From Streptomyces humicola (lineage in GTDB: Bacteria; Actinomycetota; Actinomycetes; Streptomycetales; Streptomycetaceae): a DNA stretch of 64,000 nucleotides. The first letter of the stretch is position 1, and every line of letters begins with the position of its first letter. The stretch lies in assembly GCF_024436035.1 (NCBI RefSeq), contig NZ_JANFNG010000002.1, positions 186,001 through 250,000 on the forward strand, written 5' to 3'. Under the pieces are notes generated by a model. It saw only the letters and a program-made list of their open reading frames with translations, ran no database searches and was not told the origin of the DNA. This document shows, in pieces, positions 39,715 to 63,407 of the stretch. The position numbers were made by a program, and so were the translations under genes.

Positions 39715-42700
39715 ATGCACGACGACCGCAGCCTGGTCGAGTCCCGTCTCAAGCGCGTCCTCGACGAGCGGATCCGCCCCGCCCTGTATCCGCGGTCCGT
39801 TCCGCTCGACGTCGGCATCTGGCACGCGCCCGGCGAACCCGTGCCGGTCGCCGAGGGCCTGGCCGCTCCCCGTACCCCCATCGCGCCGGGCACGGCGTGG
39901 GGAGCGCCGTGGGGCACCAGCTGGCTGACGGTGTCGGGCACGGTGCCGGCCGAGTGGGCGGGGCGGGCGGTGGAGGCGCTGCTGGACCTCGGGTTCGACG
40001 AGAACATGCCGGGGTTCCAGTGCGAGGGCCTGGTCTACCGGGCCGACGGCACACCGGTGAAGGGCCTCAACCCGCGCAACCAGTGGGTGCGCATCGGTGC
40101 GCCGGTGGCCGGCGGGGAGAAGGTGCTGCTGCACATCGAGGCCGCGTCGAATCCCGTGATCCTCGACTACCACCCCTTCCTCCCCACCGGTCTGGGCGAC
40201 AAGGAGACCGCGGGCGACGAGCCGCAGTACCGCATCGCACGGATGGACCTGGCCGTCTTCGACGAGACGGTGTGGGAGCTCGTCCAGGACCTGGAGGTGC
40301 TCGGCGAGCTCATGCAGGAGCTGCCGGTGGAGGGTGCGCGCCGCTGGCAGATCCTGCGCGCGATCGACCGGGCGCTCGACGCGATCGACCTGCAGGACGT
40401 GGGCGGCACGGCCGCTGCCGCGCGCGAGCGGCTCGCCGGTGTGCTCAGCGCGCCCGCCGAGCCCTCCGCGCACCGCATCAGCGCCGTCGGCCACGCGCAC
40501 ATCGACTCCGCCTGGCTGTGGCCGCTGCGCGAGACCGTGCGCAAGGTGGCGCGGACGACGGCGAACATGACGGCGCTGCTCGATGACGAGCCGGAGTTCG
40601 TCTACGCGATGTCGCAGGCCCAGCAGTACGCATGGATCAAGGAGCACCGGCCCGAGGTTTACGCGAAGGTGAAGAAGGCGGTCGCCGAGGGCCGGTTCGT
40701 CCCGGCCGGCGGCATGTGGGTGGAGTCCGACACCAACATGCCCGGCTCCGAGGCGATGGCCCGTCAGTTCGTGCACGGCAAGCGCTTCTTCCTCGACGAG
40801 TTCGGCATCGAGAACGAGGAGGCGTGGCTCCCCGACACCTTCGGCTTCGCCGCGGGACTGCCGCAGATCATCAAGGCGGCGGGTTCCAAGTGGCTGCTGA
40901 CGCAGAAGATCTCGTGGAGCCAGGTCAACAAGTTCCCGCACCACACCTTCTGGTGGGAGGGGATCGACGGAACCCGGATCTTCACGCACTTCCCGCCCGT
41001 CGACACCTACAACTGCTCGATGAAAGGGCAGGAGATCGCCCACGCCGTACGCAACTTCAAGGACAAGGGCGCAGCAGGCCGCTCCCTCGCGCCCACCGGC
41101 TACGGCGACGGCGGTGGCGGCACGACACGCGAGATGATCGCGAAGGCGGCGCGGATGCGCAGCCTGGAGGGGTCGGCGCGGATCGAATGGGAAAAGCCGG
41201 CGGCATTCTTCGCCAAGGCTCAGGCCGAGTACCCCGCCCCGCCGGTGTGGGTGGGCGAGCTGTATCTGGAGCTGCACCGCGCGACGCTCACCAGCCAGGC
41301 GAAGACCAAACAGGGCAACCGGCGCAGCGAACACTTGCTGCGCGAGGCGGAGTTGTGGGCGGCCACGGCAGCGGTGCGGGCCGGCTCCCCGTACCCGTAC
41401 GAGCGGTTGGACAGGGTGTGGAAGACCGTTCTGCTCCACCAGTTCCACGACATTCTGCCGGGCTCGTCGATCGCGTGGGTGCACCGCGAGGCGAAGAAGA
41501 CGTACGCGGCGGTGGCCGAGGAGCTGGAGTCGGTCATCGCGGACGCACAGCGGGCGCTCGCCGGTGACCCGGCGTCGGGTTCCGTGCTCGTCTTCAACGG
41601 CGCGCCGCACAGGCGCGGCGGGGTGCCCGCGGGCGGTGCGCGGCCCGCAGCGCCGGCCGAGGGCCGGTGCACCGTCTCCGAGCGGCCGGGCGGCGGCTTC
41701 CTGCTCGACAACGGGCTGCTGCGGGTCGGGATCGACGAGCGGGGCCTGGTGGTCTCCGCGTACGACGTGGCGGCCGGGCGCGAGACGGTCGCCCCCGGCC
41801 GGGCGGCCAATCTGCTGCAGATCCACCCCGACTTCCCCAACATGTGGGACGCCTGGGACGTCGACGCGTTCTACCGCAACACGGTCACCGATCTGACGGA
41901 CGCCGACGAGGTCGCGGTGGCGGACGACGGCCCGGATGCGGTGTCGGTGCGCGTGGCGCGCTCCTTCGGCGGCTCGCGCGTGACCCAGGTGCTCACGCTC
42001 ACGGCCGGCGAGAAGCGTCTCGACATCGACACGGAGGTGGACTGGCACGAGACCGAGAAGTTCCTCAAGGCCGCGTTCCCCGTCGATATCCATGCCGACC
42101 GGTACGCCTCCGAGACGCAGTTCGGGCACCTGTACCGTCCGACGCACACCAACACCAGTTGGGAAGCGGCGAAGTTCGAGGCGTGCAACCACCGCTTCGT
42201 CCACCTGGAGGAGCCCGGCTGGGGGGTCGCGATCGTCAACGACTCGACGTACGGGCACGACGTGACCCGTACCGTCCGCGCGGAGGACTCGGGCACGACC
42301 ACGACCGTGCGGGTCTCGCTGCTGCGCGCCCCGCGCTTCCCCGACCCGCACACCGACCAGGGCGTGCACCGCTTCCGCCACGCGTTCCTTCCCGGTGCGG
42401 GAATCGCCGACGCCGTCCGCGAGGGCTACCGCATCAACCTGCCCGAGCGCCGCGTCCCCGGTAACGCCGAGGTCGCTCCGCTGGTGGCGGTGGACGACGA
42501 CGCGGTGGTGGTCTCGGCCGTCAAGCTCGCCGACGACGCGAGCGGGGACGTGATCGTACGGCTCTACGAGTCACGCGGCGGAAGGGCGCGCACCCGCCTG
42601 ACCGCCGGTTTCGACGCCGACGGCGTCACGGCCTGCGACCTGCTGGAGCGTCCGCTGCGGGACGTATCCACTCGCCCGGTACTCGAAGACGACGGCGTGG

Positions 42701-42759
42701 AGCTGCGGTTGCGCCCGTTCGAGATCGTCACCCTGCGGCTGTCCCGGCACGGACACTGA
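39715..42759 (+). CDS. Alpha-mannosidase, GH38
   Basis: A 1014-residue cytosolic exoglycosidase removing alpha-linked mannose. After a 250-residue N-terminal domain, the catalytic GH38 domain begins ISAVGHAHIDSAWLWPLRET, whose His and Asp bind zinc. GMWVESDTNMPGSEAMARQF and EEAWLPDTFGFAAGLPQIIK (catalytic Asp region) follow, and HHTFWWEGIDGTRIFTHFPP is the next conserved block. The beta-rich C-terminal domains run from about residue 640 to the end (ALL-beta, ends RLRPFEIVTLRLSRHG). Length fits class II-like bacterial enzymes (about 1000). The ATG has GGAG 8 bases upstream. It is the last intact gene of the sugar operon. A large antisense frame over it is a codon-bias shadow. Confidence 0.95.
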   Translation: MHDDRSLVESRLKRVLDERIRPALYPRSVPLDVGIWHAPGEPVPVAEGLAAPRTPIAPGTAWGAPWGTSWLTVSGTVPAEWAGRAVEALLDLGFDENMPGFQCEGLVYRADGTPVKGLNPRNQWVRIGAPVAGGEKVLLHIEAASNPVILDYHPFLPTGLGDKETAGDEPQYRIARMDLAVFDETVWELVQDLEVLGELMQELPVEGARRWQILRAIDRALDAIDLQDVGGTAAAARERLAGVLSAPAEPSAHRISAVGHAHIDSAWLWPLRETVRKVARTTANMTALLDDEPEFVYAMSQAQQYAWIKEHRPEVYAKVKKAVAEGRFVPAGGMWVESDTNMPGSEAMARQFVHGKRFFLDEFGIENEEAWLPDTFGFAAGLPQIIKAAGSKWLLTQKISWSQVNKFPHHTFWWEGIDGTRIFTHFPPVDTYNCSMKGQEIAHAVRNFKDKGAAGRSLAPTGYGDGGGGTTREMIAKAARMRSLEGSARIEWEKPAAFFAKAQAEYPAPPVWVGELYLELHRATLTSQAKTKQGNRRSEHLLREAELWAATAAVRAGSPYPYERLDRVWKTVLLHQFHDILPGSSIAWVHREAKKTYAAVAEELESVIADAQRALAGDPASGSVLVFNGAPHRRGGVPAGGARPAAPAEGRCTVSERPGGGFLLDNGLLRVGIDERGLVVSAYDVAAGRETVAPGRAANLLQIHPDFPNMWDAWDVDAFYRNTVTDLTDADEVAVADDGPDAVSVRVARSFGGSRVTQVLTLTAGEKRLDIDTEVDWHETEKFLKAAFPVDIHADRYASETQFGHLYRPTHTNTSWEAAKFEACNHRFVHLEEPGWGVAIVNDSTYGHDVTRTVRAEDSGTTTTVRVSLLRAPRFPDPHTDQGVHRFRHAFLPGAGIADAVREGYRINLPERRVPGNAEVAPLVAVDDDAVVVSAVKLADDASGDVIVRLYESRGGRARTRLTAGFDADGVTACDLLERPLRDVSTRPVLEDDGVELRLRPFEIVTLRLSRHGH

Positions 42760-42775
42760 GCGGAAGGCAACGCCC

Positions 42776-42914
42776 ATGGACATCCGACGTCCCGGCGCTG
42801 AGCCACCAGCCGTCGTACTCGATGCTCGACCGGTCGCTGGAGGTCGGCGCACCGCCGCTCACCGAAGACGAATTCACCGCGATCGACGCGCCGGCGAAGC
42901 CCTCGGGGAGCTGA
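42776..42914 (+). pseudogene. Aldo/keto reductase remnant
   Basis: An ATG with GGAAGG upstream (42776) starts a gene-like frame 16 bp after the mannosidase stop. After about 3 codons the readable homology is in another frame: VPALSHQPSYSMLDRS, the mid-protein strand of YghZ/Kv-beta-type aldo/keto reductases (compare HQPSYSMLNRWVE), then directly PLTEDEFTAIDAPAKPSGS, their C-terminus. The first half, including the Asp-Tyr-Lys-His tetrad, and a later stretch are missing. A strong terminator follows the stop. It would originally have been the last gene of the sugar operon. Confidence 0.68.
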
Positions 42915-42920
42915 GGGCGT

Positions 42921-42974
42921 GCCGGACGGCGCCGGTCCCTGCCGGTGCGGTGCGAGGGACCGGCGCCGTCCGGC
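42921..42974. terminator. 20-bp perfect hairpin, bidirectional terminator
   Basis: 42921-42940 is the exact reverse complement of 42955-42974, with a 14-base loop. It lies 6 bp after the reductase remnant and 2 bp beyond the convergent stop at 42977, separating the sugar operon from the conservon. Confidence 0.88.
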
Positions 42975-42976
42975 GT

Positions 42977-43603
42977 CTATGCGCCGTGTGAGTCGTCGAC
43001 CAGCTGTGCCGCGTACAGGCGGCTGGCGTGCTCGACGAGAGCGGTCAGCACCTCCTTGCCGGAGGCGCGCTCCCGTGCGTCGCACAGCACGACGGGCGTC
43101 CCCGGATCCAGGTCGAGCGCCGAGCCCACCTCCTCGGCACGGTAGTGGCGGGCGCCGTCGAAGCAGTTGACCGCGACGATGAACGGGATGCCCCGATGCT
43201 CGAAGTAGTCGACGGCCGGGAAGCAGTCGCGCAGCCGCCGGGTGTCGGCGAGCACGACGGCACCGAGCGCGCCCTGGGCCAACTCGTCCCACATGAACCA
43301 GAACCGGTCCTGCCCGGGGGTGCCGAACAGGTAGAGCGCCAGGTCCTCGTGGATGGTGATCCGGTCGAAGTCCATGGCCACCGTGGTGGTGGCCTTGTCC
43401 TCGACGCCGTCGAGGCTGTCGACCGGACGTCCGGCCTCGGTCAGCCGCTCCTCGGTGCGCAGCGGGCGGATCTCGCTGACCGAGCCGACCAACGTGGTCT
43501 TGCCCGCACCGAAGCCTCCGGCGACCATGATCTTCAGCGCCATGAAGTTACTGGACGGCGCGGACCTGGCGGGGTTCGGTGCGTCAGAGCGCTCGGAGAC
43601 CAT
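42977..43603 (-). CDS. cvnD: Conservon GTPase-like ATP/GTP-binding protein CvnD
   Basis: A 208-residue small G-protein of the actinobacterial conservon. The P-loop is GGFGAGKTTLVGSVSE near residue 30, a conserved SEIRPLRTEERLTEAG block follows, the DTxGQ-like switch is FGTPGQDRFWFMWDEL near 92, and the base-recognition motif AVNCFDGARHY is near 145. It acts with CvnA-C as a membrane-associated, GPCR-like signalling module. Its start overlaps the end of cvnC by 20 bp, as usual in these operons. It is the last gene of the leftward operon, ending at a very strong hairpin. All switch motifs look intact. Confidence 0.95.
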   Translation of the reverse strand: MVSERSDAPNPARSAPSSNFMALKIMVAGGFGAGKTTLVGSVSEIRPLRTEERLTEAGRPVDSLDGVEDKATTTVAMDFDRITIHEDLALYLFGTPGQDRFWFMWDELAQGALGAVVLADTRRLRDCFPAVDYFEHRGIPFIVAVNCFDGARHYRAEEVGSALDLDPGTPVVLCDARERASGKEVLTALVEHASRLYAAQLVDDSHGA

Positions 43604-43961
43604 CGATCACTTTCTTGAGAAGCCGTGCGTCCGGCAATCGGGCAGGGGGTACAGGGCGGCTGACCTGGATCAGCCCGGCGGCGAGCAGGTCGCTGAGCAG
43701 TACGCGCACGACTCCGAGGGGCAGACCCGCGTCGGAGGCGATGTCCGCCACCGGCCGGGCCCGCTGCGCGCACAACTGCAGGATCGCGTTCTGCTCGGGT
43801 GAAAGCATCGTCGCGTGCTCGTCCGGTTCCACGGCCTGGACGACCGCCATGAGGTCGAACACCTCGCTGCCCGGTCTGGCGCGCCCCGCCGTCATCGCGT
43901 ACAGCCGTACCAGCGGCCCCGCTTCGTCGTCGTACCAGTGCGGCGTGGAGGAGTCGATCAT
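43584..43961 (-). CDS. cvnC: Conservon protein CvnC (DUF742)
   Basis: A 125-residue DUF742 protein. The family opening WYDDEAGPLVRLYAMTAGRA is present, followed by a winged-helix-like body (MLSPEQNAILQLCAQRARPV, then PLGVVRVLLSDLLAAGLIQV) and the C-terminal PDARLLKKVIDGLRAL. The role in the complex is not established, although the fold suggests DNA or protein binding. It overlaps cvnD by 20 bp and starts 10 bp after the cvnB stop. Intact. Confidence 0.94.
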   Translation of the reverse strand: MIDSSTPHWYDDEAGPLVRLYAMTAGRARPGSEVFDLMAVVQAVEPDEHATMLSPEQNAILQLCAQRARPVADIASDAGLPLGVVRVLLSDLLAAGLIQVSRPVPPARLPDARLLKKVIDGLRAL

Positions 43962-43971
43962 GAAGAATCCT

Positions 43972-44358
43972 TTATTCCGGTTCCGCGAAGCCGCTCGCCG
44001 CTCCGGCCCGGGTGGGCGTCTCCAGATGCTCGCCGACCCGCCTGACCAGTCGGGCCATCTCGTAGGCGACGAGACCCACGTCGGCGGAGGCGTCGGTGAA
44101 GACCGACAGGCACGATCCGTCCCCGGCGGCGACGACGAAGAGGAAGCCGCCCTCCAGCTCGACCATGGTCTGGATCACCGAGCCGGCACCGAAGTGCCGC
44201 CCGGACCCCTTGGCGAGGCTGTGGAAGCCCGACGCGATCGCGGCGAACCGCTCGCCGTCGTCACGCGTCATGTCCGCCGAGGCACCGACCGGCAGGCCGT
44301 CCCCGGAGAGCACCACCGCCTGCGTGATCTCCGCGACCCGGGAGAACCAACTCGTCAA
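43972..44358 (-). CDS. cvnB: Conservon roadblock/LC7 protein CvnB, apparently frameshifted near its start
   Basis: The roadblock fold (AVVLSGDGLPVGASADMTRD to the end) is intact. The N-terminus is not. An ATG at 44401 overlaps the cvnA stop as ATGA and begins MTGDIRQSAELNWLLDELV, exactly as family members start. The continuation SRVAEITQAVV is one frame over: the minus strand reads TTGGTTCTCC where TTGGTCTCC would keep frame (about 44343-44348). The annotated frame from a TTG at 44358 lacks the conserved LNWLLDE helix and has no ribosome-binding site. This is either a real one-base insertion or a sequencing error. Family proteins are about 135-140 residues. Confidence 0.8.
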   Translation of the reverse strand: MTSWFSRVAEITQAVVLSGDGLPVGASADMTRDDGERFAAIASGFHSLAKGSGRHFGAGSVIQTMVELEGGFLFVVAAGDGSCLSVFTDASADVGLVAYEMARLVRRVGEHLETPTRAGAASGFAEPE

Positions 44359-44397
44359 GAAGCCAGTTGAGTTCGGCGGACTGCCGGATGTCGCCGG

Positions 44398-45606
44398 TCA
44401 TCGTGATTCATCTCCTCGGGGCGGGATCTCGCTCGACTCGTGCTCCTCCGGGGCCGCCTCCGGGGGCCGCTGCGCACCGGTGCCGCGGCCGCGCGCCCAA
44501 CCGGCGCGCAGCGACGCCATCGTGGCCCGCGCCTGCTCCGGGGAGCGGCGGGACGGACCGGACGCGGTGGCATCGCGCGGTACGAACCGGGGCGGGGTCT
44601 CCGGGCGGCCGCGCAGCGGAGGCGCGAGGCTCGCCTGCCGGGTGCGGCGCGGCAGCGGTTCCGCGGGACCGTCGGCCGCCGCCTTGCCCGCTCCTTCGCC
44701 CATGCCGTGTCCGCTTCCTCGGCCGCTCCCGTGGCCGTTGCCGTTGCCGTTCTGCGAGGGAGCGCCGCCGTCCCGGGCTGGGCCTGCGGCGGGAGCCGGC
44801 GTCGTGTGGGGCACGGGGATGCTCCCTCCGGGCGTCCGCGGCCGGGCGGGGCCCGCGGGCTCGCTCTCCGGGGCGCGGCGCTGGGCGGGGAACGGCACGG
44901 CGTCGCCCTGGCGGTCGGCGGCGCGCAGCTGCGCCGGGCGGGGGCGGTCCTCGGACCGGTCGTCCTGGCCGGCCCGGGCGTGGGTGCCGGCCGTGGACGC
45001 GACCTCGGCTGGTACCTGTTCGGCGGGCTCGGCCTCCAGCAGGGCTTCGGGCAGCAGGACGACGGCGGTCACGCCGCCGTACGCGGAGCGCTGCAGCGAC
45101 ACCGACACGCCCTGCCGGTGGGCGAGCCGGTTGACGACGAACAGGCCGAGCTGTTCGGTGTCGAGCAGGTCGATCCGTCTTACGTCGGCGATGCGCTGGT
45201 TGGCCTCTTCGAGCGCCTCCTTGCCCATGCCCAGACCGCGGTCCTCGATCTCCACCACGACGCCGGAGCCGACCTGCTGGCCCCGGGCGAGGACCCGGGT
45301 GTGCGGGGGCGAGAACGAAGTGGCGTTCTCGACGAGTTCGGCGACCAGGTGGGTGAGGTCGGCGACGGCGGCACCGGTGAGGTGGACGTCGGGAATCTGC
45401 GTGACGTCGACCCGCGGGAAGTCCTCGACCTCCGAGACCGCTGAGCGCACGACGTCGAGCAGCGGCACTGGCCTGCGCCAGCCGCGGCCGGGCGCCGCGC
45501 CGGAGAGGATGATCAGGGACTCCGCATGGCGGCGCATGCGCGTGGTCAGGTGGTCGAGCCGGAAGAGGTCCTCGAGCTCCGCCGGGTCCTCGTTGCGGCG
45601 CTCCAT
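44398..45606 (-). CDS. cvnA: Conservon sensor kinase-like protein CvnA, N-terminally truncated
   Basis: About 402 residues from ATG 45606. The conserved histidine-kinase-like dimer segment is present (LFRLDHLTTRMRRHAESLII), as are the HATPase N-box LVAELVENATSFSPPHTRVL, the G1 region EIEDRGLGMGKEALEEANQR, and LGLFVVNRLAHRQGVSVSLQ. A long Pro/Gly/Arg-rich tail ends the protein. Typical CvnA proteins have membrane segments and a 250-400-residue extracellular sensor before this point. Here coding homology begins at 45606, and the upstream sequence is the start of an unrelated MHYT gene in another frame. The product could at best be a soluble ATPase fragment, and no good ribosome-binding site precedes it. 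Confidence 0.72.
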   Translation of the reverse strand: MERRNEDPAELEDLFRLDHLTTRMRRHAESLIILSGAAPGRGWRRPVPLLDVVRSAVSEVEDFPRVDVTQIPDVHLTGAAVADLTHLVAELVENATSFSPPHTRVLARGQQVGSGVVVEIEDRGLGMGKEALEEANQRIADVRRIDLLDTEQLGLFVVNRLAHRQGVSVSLQRSAYGGVTAVVLLPEALLEAEPAEQVPAEVASTAGTHARAGQDDRSEDRPRPAQLRAADRQGDAVPFPAQRRAPESEPAGPARPRTPGGSIPVPHTTPAPAAGPARDGGAPSQNGNGNGHGSGRGSGHGMGEGAGKAAADGPAEPLPRRTRQASLAPPLRGRPETPPRFVPRDATASGPSRRSPEQARATMASLRAGWARGRGTGAQRPPEAAPEEHESSEIPPRGDESR

Positions 45607-45704
45607 GTGCAGCGCAGTCCGAGGGCCGACCCGACACACGCCATGACGTATGCGAGGACAGGCGAAACCCATCCGGCGCCGCTGAAATCGTGCATGCCAC
45701 CCAC
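45607..45704 (-). pseudogene. 5' remnant of an MHYT-domain protein gene, joined to cvnA
   Basis: A GTG at 45704 (GAAGGGA six bases upstream) and an ATG at 45695 start the frame MHDFSGAGWVSPVLAYVMAC, then VGSALGLRCT. This matches, from memory, the first transmembrane helix of streptomycete MHYT-domain proteins, which continue into further helices. The match ends near 45605-45610, exactly where CvnA homology starts in another frame. One deletion probably removed the rest of this gene and the 5' part of cvnA. Confidence 0.62.
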
Positions 45705-46237
45705 GGCGATTCCCTTCACAAATCGGCGTCGCGCCGTGGGACGCTAACACAGAATACACACGTTGCGTTCACACATAATCACGTTGACAGGAAACAGGTG
45801 CGGGCACGTCTTCGACGCAGCGTCGGGTTACCTGTGAGTCAGGTGGCCATTAGGGCCACCTGAGGCACCGTCGCATGGCTTCCTGCAAGTACAACGCTTC
45901 ACGCCAACTTCCTTTCAAGGAAGGCAATTTGATGACCGTTCCTGAACGCCGTCGACCACCTGTGACCCACGGAACGCGCAACCGCAGACTGTTCCCGTAT
46001 ATCGCGAAGCACGGATGAGAAAGATCATCGTTCAGCAGTTCCGAAATAGACGATAAAGAGGGGCGCACAACACCCACTCGACCATCCAGAAAACGACACA
46101 GAAATCGGACAATGCACCATGGAGCACATAAGCGGCCCGCCACCGCCCACATCGCAAGGATTCACAGGAACCCAACAACGAGACAGTGGCTGGGTTACTC
46201 TTCAGCTGTCCATATTCCGTCTATATCCGAGGCCGCC
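45705..46237. other. AT-enriched intergenic region with a hairpin
   Basis: More than 500 bp between the conservon side and the LysR gene. It is visibly poorer in GC than the rest of the window (for example 45890-46140). It holds a perfect 10-bp hairpin at 45839-45863 (5-base loop) that could be a terminator or regulatory structure. Open frames here lack coding character. No insertion-sequence ends or RNA genes were recognised. Confidence 0.45.
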
Positions 46238-47155
46238 GTGCTCGATCTACGCCATCTCCAGGTGCTCCGCGCGATCGCGCGGCACGGCTCCCTCGCCGCC
46301 GCCGCACGCGCGCTCCACTACAGCCAGCCGACCGTCACGCATCACCTCGCCTCGCTCGAATCGCACTTCGACGCCCAGTTGGTGCGGCGCGGTCCGCGCG
46401 GCGCCGAGCTCACCGAGATCGGCGAGGTGCTGCTGCCGCACGCGGAGGCCGTGCTGCAACGTGTCGAACTGGGCGAGCAGGAGGTGCGCGGCATGGTCGA
46501 GCGGGGCGCCGCGACCCTGCGCGTGGGCACCTTCCCCACCGCGGGTGCGCTGCTCCTCCCGCCCGCCGTCCGCACCCTGCACGACCAGGGAGTGCACGTC
46601 TCGCTCATCGAGGGCGAGCTGCCCACTCTCCTCGACGCGTTGCGCGCCCGCGAACTCCAGCTCTCCCTGGTCTTCTCGCAGCCCGGCGACCGGCTCGACC
46701 TGCAGGAGGACTTCGCGCTGTTCCCGCTGCTCGACGATCCGCTGCTGCTCGTGCTGCCCGCGGGCCACCCCTGCGCCGCAATGGACCGGGTGCCGCTCGC
46801 GGCGCTCAAGGACGACGGCTGGATCGTCGGGACGACCGACTGGGACCCGTGCGACCGGCTGCTGTCGTGGGCGTGCGAGCGCGAGGGGTTCGAGCCGGTC
46901 CATGTGCTGCGCACCGACGACTACGGCGTGATCCAGGGGTTTGTGGCCGCCGGCACGGGCGTGGCGCTCCTGCCGCGGCTCGCCCTCGGCCCGCACCGCG
47001 ACGACCTCGCCGTACGACAGGTCGACGGCCCGCCGTTGGCGCGCCAGATCGGCGTCGCCATGCTCCGCACGACGACCGCGGCCAGCGCCCGCCTGCTCCT
47101 CGACGCGCTGCGGACGCAGGCGGCCAGGCTCTGCGCGGGACGGGACGAGGTCTAG
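46238..47155 (+). CDS. LysR-family transcriptional regulator
   Basis: A 305-residue regulator. The winged helix-turn-helix lies at the N-terminus (LDLRHLQVLRAIARHGSLAA, then AARALHYSQPTVTHHLASLE). A LysR substrate-binding domain follows from about residue 90 (ATLRVGTFPTAGALLLPPAV, then FALFPLLDDPLLLVLPAGHP). The GTG at 46238 matches the usual position directly before LDLRHLQ. Longer in-frame starts run into the AT-rich region. There is no divergently transcribed target next to it. A hairpin follows the stop. Confidence 0.93.
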   Translation: MLDLRHLQVLRAIARHGSLAAAARALHYSQPTVTHHLASLESHFDAQLVRRGPRGAELTEIGEVLLPHAEAVLQRVELGEQEVRGMVERGAATLRVGTFPTAGALLLPPAVRTLHDQGVHVSLIEGELPTLLDALRARELQLSLVFSQPGDRLDLQEDFALFPLLDDPLLLVLPAGHPCAAMDRVPLAALKDDGWIVGTTDWDPCDRLLSWACEREGFEPVHVLRTDDYGVIQGFVAAGTGVALLPRLALGPHRDDLAVRQVDGPPLARQIGVAMLRTTTAASARLLLDALRTQAARLCAGRDEV

Positions 47156-47384: not shown

Positions 47385-47900
47385 TCACGCCTGCGGCGGA
47401 CTGGCGAGCAGGTCGTAGAGCGCCAGCGGCGTCACATACCCGGGCCACCGGCCGTCGGCGAACAGGTGCACCCCACCGTCGAGGTAGGTCCGGTCCACCA
47501 GTTGGGAGCAGATCATGTGCCGGGACGAGGCGACGTAGCGGCGCAGCCCGGGGGCGGGGATGTGGAAGCGGTGCACCGCGATGGCCAGGTAGTCGGCGAA
47601 CGAGTAGGGCACCCCGACGTAGCGGTGCGCCGCCGCGCAGATCGCCTCCCGCTGGTTCTCGGTGAGCGTCGCGGGGCAGACGTAGACCACGTTGCGCTGC
47701 TCGTACTCCGACAACGGTGCGATGCGGGCACCCCCGGGCTCGGCCTCGATCAGCTGCTCGTCGGGCAGGACGAGGAACGCGTGCTCGTAGTTTTTGAAGC
47801 CGTTCCCGTTGATCCACTGTCCGAATTCGATGAACTTGCCTACGGGGCCGGGGATCTGGGTGAGCCCGATGTCCCCGGGCACGGGTTCGGTGTGGATCAC
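47385..47900 (-). CDS. NlpC/P60-like (YiiX/permuted papain fold) hydrolase
   Basis: A 171-residue protein from GTG 47900 with GGGAGGAGG upstream. It opens with the His block of permuted NlpC/P60 proteins (VIHTEPVPGDIGLTQIPGPV, then GQWINGNGFKNYEHAFLVLP, where YEHAFLV carries a catalytic His). The Cys lies near the C-terminus in SRHMICSQLVDRTYLDGGVH, the reverse order of classical NlpC. VGVPYSFADYLAIAV is a further family segment. There is no signal peptide, so it may act inside the cell or in an unusual export route. The open frame continues upstream to 48236, but that part belongs to a different decayed gene. Confidence 0.82.
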   Translation of the reverse strand: MIHTEPVPGDIGLTQIPGPVGKFIEFGQWINGNGFKNYEHAFLVLPDEQLIEAEPGGARIAPLSEYEQRNVVYVCPATLTENQREAICAAAHRYVGVPYSFADYLAIAVHRFHIPAPGLRRYVASSRHMICSQLVDRTYLDGGVHLFADGRWPGYVTPLALYDLLASPPQA

Positions 47901-48107
47901 GGCTGCGCCTCCTCCCGGCCGGCGGATGACGCCGGCCGCCCGCAACGCGATCCGCTCGCCGGCAACCGTACCGCTGCCGCAAGCGGATCCTGACGGCCCG
48001 TCGGCGAAGGGTTGTCCCGTCAACCGGCCCTGTTTTCCGTATAGCGACGCCCGACGCACTGGGTCAATGACGCTGCGGCGAACCTCCCCCGATCGTGACC
48101 TGCCCGG

Positions 48108-48254
48108 TCCACCGCTCGTAGCCCCGTCCAGGACGTAGGGCATGTTCGTGTACGGGACCGTGCCGTTGAAGTCGTGCCAGGCGCAGAGCCCCGAGTTGGG
48201 GAAGCCGTCGGGCGAGTTGCCGCTCGGGCTCAGCACGACACGGCCATGTCGACG
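48108..48254 (-). pseudogene. Fragment of a secreted protein gene
   Basis: In frame with the NlpC-like gene, but outside it, the sequence encodes GRVVLSPSGNSPDGFPNSGL, CAWHDFNGTVPYTNMPYVLD. From memory this resembles the central part of actinobacterial secreted proteins with CAWHD-G-TNMPYV motifs. No start, signal peptide or continuation (the following family segment with HEYAETITD) is present on either side. The rest of 47901-48377 contains only a hairpin. Confidence 0.5.
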
Positions 48255-61685: not shown

Positions 61686-63407
61686 TCAGAAGAGGAAGTA
61701 GCGCTGGGCCATCGGGAGTTCAATGGCGGGTTCCGGGTCGACGACGTCCCCGTCGATGCGGACGGTGAAGGTGTCGGCGTCGACCTCGACGCGCGGCAGC
61801 GCGTCGTTCTCCCGCATGTCGGCCTTGGTGACCGCGCGGGTGGAACCGATCGCGCAGAATCGCTTGTCCAGGCCCAGTCGTTCGGCGAGGCCGTCATCGA
61901 GGGCGGACTGCGTCACGAAGTTGACCGAGTTGGCGGCCGGTGCCCGTCCGGTGGCCCCGAACATCGGCCTGGGCAGCACGGGCTGCGGCGTCGGGATCGA
62001 GGCGTTGGCGTCGCCCATCTGTGCGTAGGCGATCTGGCCGCCCTTGATCACCAACTGCGGCTTGACGCCGAAGAACGCAGCTTCCCACAGCACCAGGTCG
62101 GCGAGCTTGCCCTCCTCGACCGAGCCGATCTCGGGGTCGAGCCCCTGGGCGACGGCCGGGTTGATGGTGTATTTGGCGACATATCGACGAGCCCGATGGT
62201 TGTCGGCCCGCCCGTCGCCCGGGAGCGCGCCGCGCCGTCGCTTCATTACATGCGCGGTCTGCCAGGTGCGCAGCACGACCTCGCCGATCCGTCCCATCGC
62301 CTGGGAGTCGGAGGAGATCATCGAGATCGCGCCCAGGTCGTGCAGGACGTCCTCGGCGGCAATGGTCGAGGGCCGGATCCGGGACTCGGCGAAGGCCAGG
62401 TCCTCCGGCACCGCAGGGTTGAGGTGGTGGCAGACCATCAGCATGTCGAGGTGTTCCTCGACGGTGTTGACGGTGTGCGGGCGCGTCGGGTTCGTCGAGG
62501 ACGGCAGCACGTTGGACCGGGAGACGACCGTGATGATATCGGGCGCGTGGCCTCCGCCGGCACCTTCGGTGTGGTAAGCGTGGATGCCCCGGCCGGCGAT
62601 CGCCGCGAGGGTGTCCTCGACGAAGCCGGCTTCGTTCAGGGTGTCGGTGTGGATGGCGACCTGTGCGCCGCTCTCCTCGCACACCGTCAGACAGGCGTCG
62701 ATGGCGGCCGGAGTCGCACCCCAGTCCTCGTGGATCTTGAAGCCGACGGCTCCGGCCCGCAGTTGGTCGCGCATCGACTCGGCGCTGACGGTGTTGCCCT
62801 TGCCGAGCAGGCCGATGTTGACCGGCGACGACTCCAACGCCTCGAAGACACGGGCGAGATGCCAGGCGCCGGGGGTGATGGTGGTCGCCTTGCTGCCCTC
62901 CGCGGGGCCGGTGCCGCCGCCGACCAGCGTGGTGATCCCCGAGGCGAGCGCCTCGTCGACGAGCTGCGGGCAGATGAAGTGGACGTGGGCGTCGATGGCG
63001 CCCGCGGTGAGTATCTTGCCGTTGCCGGCGACGATCTCGGTCTCCGGGCCGATGACGAGGGCGGGGTGGACGCCGTCCATCGTCTCGGGGTTGCCGGCCT
63101 TCCCGACGGCGACGATGCGCCCGTCCCGGATGCCGACATCGGCCTTGACGATGCCCCAGTGGTCGAGCACCACGGCGCCGGTGATGACGGTGTCCGGCGC
63201 GCCCTGGGCGCGGGTGACCCGGGACTGGCCCATCGACTCGCGGATCACCTTGCCGCCGCCGAAGACGGCTTCGTCGCCCGCGAGTCCGGGACCGCCGGAC
63301 AGGTCGCGCTCGATCTCGATCAGCAGGTCGGTGTCGGCGAGACGTATGCGGTCGCCGGTCGTCGGGCCGAACAGATCGGCATAGGCGGCACGGGTCAGCT
63401 CGGTCAT
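61686..63407 (-). CDS. ureC: Urease subunit alpha UreC
   Basis: The 573-residue catalytic subunit hydrolysing urea to ammonia and carbamate. Nickel ligands and active-site residues appear intact: [12 protein letters not shown] near 133-144, the carbamylated Lys in [17 protein letters not shown] near 218, [17 protein letters not shown] near 273, the mobile-flap [20 protein letters not shown] near 320 with the catalytic His, and the Asp in [20 protein letters not shown] near 360. Length matches bacterial UreC (about 567-573). The start overlaps the ureB stop as ATGA. Confidence 0.97.

Follow-up and report, generated by a model that had tools for sequence, protein, structure and literature searches.

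Comparison with complete operons of related bacteria showed that the window (the whole stretch of 64,000 nucleotides of Streptomyces humicola DNA analysed here) carries an MHYT–cvnA–cvnB–cvnC–cvnD operon with an internal deletion of approximately 2.1–2.4 kb. The cvnA–D genes make up a conservon, an actinobacterial G protein system according to the accessible text of PMC13343842 and PMC8510531. We consider it likely that the window holds a recently disabled conservon, one point against this being that its unbroken conserved positions would also fit continued use. A disabled regulatory operon is by itself ordinary, and the part worth following is the pairing of MHYT and cvnA genes, which the window exposes and which occurs in Streptomycetaceae and Pseudonocardiaceae. 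Little is understood of the signals that conservons perceive, and the MHYT–cvnA pair offers a concrete candidate for a conservon input, namely a diatomic gas perceived through copper.

The MHYT–cvnA join and the deletion

The GTG at 45704 on the minus strand is the start of a truncated MHYT gene, which opens with VGGMHDFSGAGWVSPVLAYVMACVGSALGLRCT and has the SD-like sequence GAAGGGAA 5′ of the GTG. The out-of-frame tail of the remnant is terminated by a stop at 45546, and the core of cvnA begins at ATG 45606 in a frame different from that of the remnant (Table 1). When the remnant was compared with the N-terminus of the MHYT protein of one relative (L069), 29/32 residues were identical, with one extra residue in the window. 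In the DNA alignment of the join, the right 100 bases fell within cvnA and the left flank within the MHYT gene in 8/8 relatives tested, all 98 bases of the left flank being aligned in five of these and the last 69 in three. The relatives keep the MHYT repeats, which are gone from the window, the 52-codon remnant giving no Pfam match of any kind. The cvnA core is 71–79% identical to its closest orthologues. A chance resemblance of the MHYT start was rejected: judging from the identity to L069 and from the alignments of the join to the relatives, the likeness of the join region to an MHYT gene and cvnA is not due to chance. The initial annotation had described an out-of-frame fusion of an MHYT-gene start to a headless CvnA at this site; its coordinates proved right, and the alignments of the relatives agree with it.

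Table 1. Features of the remnant operon, listed in the direction of the genes (coordinates are positions in the window)
Feature	Position	Strand	Description and evidence
Conserved 5′ block TGTGTTAGCGTC	45740..45751	(-)	35 bases 5′ of the MHYT start; candidate promoter element
Truncated MHYT gene	45546..45704	(-)	52 codons in total, of which ~32 are genuine (first membrane helix) and the rest out of frame
Deletion join between MHYT gene and cvnA	45606..45607	(-)	Comparison with relatives and DNA alignment
Headless cvnA	44398..45606	(-)	DHp helix 2, ATPase domain, and C-terminal tail; HATPase_c E 1.5e-9, alignment, model
cvnB (roadblock domain)	43972..44401	(-)	One-base frameshift near 44345; Robl_LC7 (E 1.4e-20) in the frame after the shift
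cvnC (DUF742), intact	43584..43961	(-)	E 1.6e-35; alignment
cvnD (Ras-like small GTPase), intact	42977..43603	(-)	PF03029 E 1.2e-34

An intact MHYT gene lies directly 5′ of a full cvnA in 22/22 of the nearest orthologues (L056–L066, L069–L078, and L131), and the arrangement in the window is therefore the product of an internal deletion. The sizing of the deletion against complete operons, as proposed in the initial annotation, showed that 2,080–2,401 bases between equivalent points are missing from the window; the range was drawn from 20/22 relatives, the motif match being false in L056 and none being found in L078. A complete segment between the two pieces in relatives had been put forward beforehand as a finding that would speak against the fusion. 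The segment is present in all 22, which are distant relatives, and supports a deletion. From these other genera and species, we infer that the deletion took place in the S. humicola lineage. The sister species (G001) showed neither an MHYT nor a cvnA match at the thresholds used and no match at 1e-30 to the LysR or mannosidase gene that flank the operon in the window, the site being uninformative there.

As to what has been lost, the CvnA of L069 contains a NIT domain (2.7e-33) together with HATPase, and the adjoining protein contains three MHYT stretches recognized by Pfam. NIT and HATPase were both present in 9/9 further CvnA proteins, seven of them MHYT-linked. The two breakpoints have a few bases in common in some of the relatives, as might be left by end joining. 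We searched the whole genome (7.07 Mb, 78 contigs) and found no PF03707 match; the heads of the other CvnA proteins of this genome are at most 36% identical to the L069 head, and the lost head was not found elsewhere. A location of the head or of the MHYT gene on another contig was rejected, as neither turned up there in the genome search.

A tree was built from 75/77 loci (L077 and L145 were dropped because of length or a stop) and 8/11 additional relatives. The window core fell inside the MHYT-linked clade, and the MHYT-linked rows and the window formed one group (100/99), the window itself being labelled MHYT-linked on account of its remnant.

The remaining cvn genes and the 5′ block

The entire N-terminal half of CvnA and its membrane helices are absent from the window, and Pfam gave no NIT match in the window CvnA; of the combination of membrane helices and ATPase domain, only the ATPase domain remains. 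The cytoplasmic part of L074 CvnA was modelled with AlphaFold2 (mean pLDDT 82.5); in the model, a long helix (residues 45–102), a turn, and a second helix (residues 106–132) precede the ATPase fold. Since the window CvnA starts at the equivalent of L074 residue 99 in the alignment, all of the first long DHp helix except its tip is predicted to be lost. The earlier proposal that CvnA had lost its membrane sensor was thus borne out but understated, as DHp helix 1 is lost too according to the alignment and the model.

The nearly invariant DHL histidine is retained with a start at 45606 and lost with a restart at ATG 45537, which sits eight bases past the MHYT stop; no SD-like sequence was found 5′ of ATG 45606. 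The LHRQ histidine is absent from the window and falls short of near invariance across the wider alignment; a histidine of CvnA8, H183, is published in the accessible text of PMC13343842.

The open frame of the window cvnA (456) is the shortest of the 117 cvnA matches obtained from 249 Streptomycetaceae genomes (E ≤ 1e-80). Apart from the window and G104 (519), the remaining 115 have open frames of at least 785, a measure that can overstate gene length, so that small truncations would escape it. G104 (L196/L205) was rejected as a second headless cvnA, since its short open frame reflects a gap in the assembly, where runs of N occur; with a cvnD piece placed before cvnA, this operon looks like a scaffolding error. 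The S. humicola genome itself holds nine other cvnA matches, which have long open frames and no stops.

CvnB is not encoded in one open frame: the gene has one extra base near 44345 in comparison with 10 relatives (protein alignment with 21 relatives), a second lesion that the initial annotation had missed. The downstream frame is open from TTG 44358, and the roadblock domain is still recognisable in it. CvnC with DUF742 and CvnD with its small GTPase domain are intact, as had been thought, according to both the Pfam matches (Table 1) and the alignments; cvnD is 71–84% identical to the cvnD genes of the relatives and aligns with 21 of them. The genes keep the A–B–C–D order on one strand, and their nearest relatives lie in intact conservons, in agreement with a conservon by descent.

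Upstream of the MHYT gene, GTGTTAGCGTC is exact in 8/11 relatives and has near matches in the other three. Since the 5′ block is retained in the window, transcription of the remnant operon may continue from it. A scan of 42700–46300 revealed no sigma-70-like promoter and terminator-like matches close to expectation, and Rfam gave no match within the operon. Elsewhere in the window, 62956–63243 on the plus strand matched Rfam 5_ureB_sRNA (59.1 bits, gathering 40); the probable source of this match is a urease gene encoded on the opposite strand and not a known sRNA. An ORF at 47385–48236 may consist of two pieces run together: its second half gives a weak permuted papain-like (C92) match, and its long N-terminal stretch matches nothing in Pfam.

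The MHYT–cvnA gene pair

In this CvnA clade, the MHYT gene accompanies cvnA almost without exception, lying 5′ of it on the same strand in 114/117 cvnA matches from the 249 Streptomycetaceae genomes. The three exceptions are: (i) the window, (ii) G122 (L209), in which a cytochrome P450 gene (E 3.7e-82) replaces the MHYT gene 5′ of cvnA and CvnA keeps its NIT domain, and (iii) G073 (L210), in which the ORF upstream of cvnA has no Pfam match. From the MHYT side, at least 114 of the 138 matches listed (down to E 4.4e-83) were paired with cvnA. When 18 more of the 138 listed MHYT loci were inspected, 16 were paired with cvnA, plus one by another comparison; two loci (L227 and L228) showed no cvnA match in the stretch around the MHYT gene, and five of the 138 listed matches were left out of the pairing count. 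Within the set of 77 loci, the MHYT gene was present in 18, from Streptomyces, Saccharopolyspora, and a Pseudonocardiaceae MAG.

In 51/51 conservon-type MHYT proteins, the M and H residues were identical at each of the three MHYT motifs, and a NIT sensor was found in 8/8 MHYT-linked CvnA proteins tested. At four loci (L215, L216, L219, and L225), MHYT and cvnA occur together with no detectable cvnB–D match in the stretch, which in L216 extends only ~1.4 kb downstream. These are possible stand-alone sensor units, and judging from them the pair may be able to travel as its own sensor module. At L220 (G107), beside an intact MHYT gene, both the cvnA match and the cvnB match are divided between two frames, which could stem from error or decay.

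Age and fate of the operon

To judge the extent of decay, ungapped columns that are invariant in the other sequences were scored for breaks in the window (cvnA, 22 orthologues; cvnB, cvnC, and cvnD, 21 each). The cvnA core broke 0/71 such columns (orthologues 0–4), cvnB after the shift 0/41 (relatives 0–4), and cvnC 0/33 (relatives 0–2); cvnD broke 2/95 (relatives 0–3), the window tying with L074 for second place. Since the conserved positions are almost unbroken, long neutral drift is unsupported, and either the damage would be recent or the parts would still be in use. The initial annotation had left the choice between a receptor-free module and a dying conservon; the two lesions in one operon favour a dying or dead one, whereas the unbroken positions fit recency or use.

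As comparison with the relatives shows, the ancestor was an MHYT–cvnA–cvnB–cvnC–cvnD operon, in which MHYT and NIT-CvnA presumably formed a sensor unit that set the GTPase state of CvnD via CvnB and CvnC. The internal deletion joined MHYT codon ~32 to the cvnA core, so that the MHYT protein is gone and CvnA is left with DHp helix 2, the ATPase domain, and the tail only. With transcription from the kept 5′ block, a short one-helix MHYT peptide would be made and cvnA would be started poorly. Together with the cvnB frameshift, this would result in no working receptor and in little or no full CvnB, and CvnC and CvnD would be deprived of regulated input.

It is improbable, in our judgement, that the remnant operates as a working receptor-free module, in which a soluble CvnA ATPase fragment made from an internal codon would be constitutively active or act together with another conservon, CvnC and CvnD remaining in use. 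The unbroken conserved positions of cvnA, cvnB, and cvnC would fit such a module, as would the cvnA frame being open from 45759, the kept 5′ block, and the nine other cvnA genes as possible partners, but the usual dimer bundle is unlikely without DHp helix 1, cvnB is frameshifted, ATG 45606 has no clear ribosome-binding site, and no other headless case was seen among the 117 cvnA matches.

An assembly or sequencing error, the truth being a full operon or an in-frame fusion of the MHYT helix to CvnA with an unbroken cvnB, appears very unlikely. The assembly is a draft in 78 contigs, both frame offsets (at the join and in cvnB) are of one base and could be single-base assembly errors, and L220 has its frames broken in cvnA and cvnB as well, which is what such errors would give. 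A single-base error explains the offsets but not the missing 2 kb, which did not turn up in the rest of the assembly; moreover, the join is located within a long contig, and long, stop-free open frames are seen in the nine other cvnA matches of this genome. That the two pieces were brought together from two places by a rearrangement is hardly credible, since MHYT and cvnA adjoin each other, with order and strand conserved, in all but three of the 117 cases and the window retains the 5′ block of an MHYT–cvnA operon, even though the genes flanking the operon in the window were not found beside the operons of relatives, save for weak LysR matches in two loci. A recently disabled conservon thus remains our preferred reading of the window.

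Comparison with known systems

The gene order and the CvnA core, CvnB, CvnC, and CvnD domains of the window match those of the conservon cvnA–D (PMC13343842, PMC8510531). The window differs from it in that CvnA is without the sensor, membrane helices, and DHp helix 1, and cvnB is frameshifted. A further difference is that the ancestral operon was headed by an MHYT gene; no mention of MHYT was found in the accessible text of PMC13343842 and PMC8510531, the word itself being absent from that of the latter. Likewise, no report of an MHYT–conservon or MHYT–roadblock pairing was found in the literature searched, which covered a minority of subscription papers; the related searches led to work on a Pantoea diguanylate cyclase and on coelimycin.

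Conservon accessories are known: according to the accessible text of PMC13343842 (2026), CvnE (a P450) and CvnF (a GAF protein) occur overwhelmingly with CvnA proteins lacking sensor domains. The MHYT gene is similar to these in being an extra gene that adjoins cvnA and may feed signals to CvnA. Unlike them, the ancestral extra gene here is an MHYT gene located upstream, and the CvnA proteins paired with such genes carry a NIT sensor (8/8 tested). No P450 or GAF gene of the CvnE/CvnF type lies beside the operon, the neighbours tested being a GH38 mannosidase and a LysR regulator.

CoxC is an MHYT–LytTR CO-responsive regulator whose MHYT domain senses CO with copper (accessible text of PMC11347149). 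It shares a membrane MHYT domain with the conservon-type MHYT proteins, but in CoxC this domain is joined to a DNA-binding one in a single protein, whereas the conservon-type MHYT is a protein of its own, next to one that is histidine kinase-like. Because one MHYT domain senses CO through copper, MHYT and CvnA make up a plausible sensor unit; the analysis of their possible physical or functional coupling covered gene neighbourhood and motif conservation. We regard as evenly balanced the further proposal that the MHYT proteins constitute an unreported class of conservon accessories, acting as copper-dependent membrane sensors of a gas (CO, NO, or O2) together with a NIT-domain CvnA. If this is true, part of the actinobacterial G protein systems would listen to CO, NO, or O2 in addition to a NIT ligand, and the window would be a natural knockout of both inputs by one deletion.
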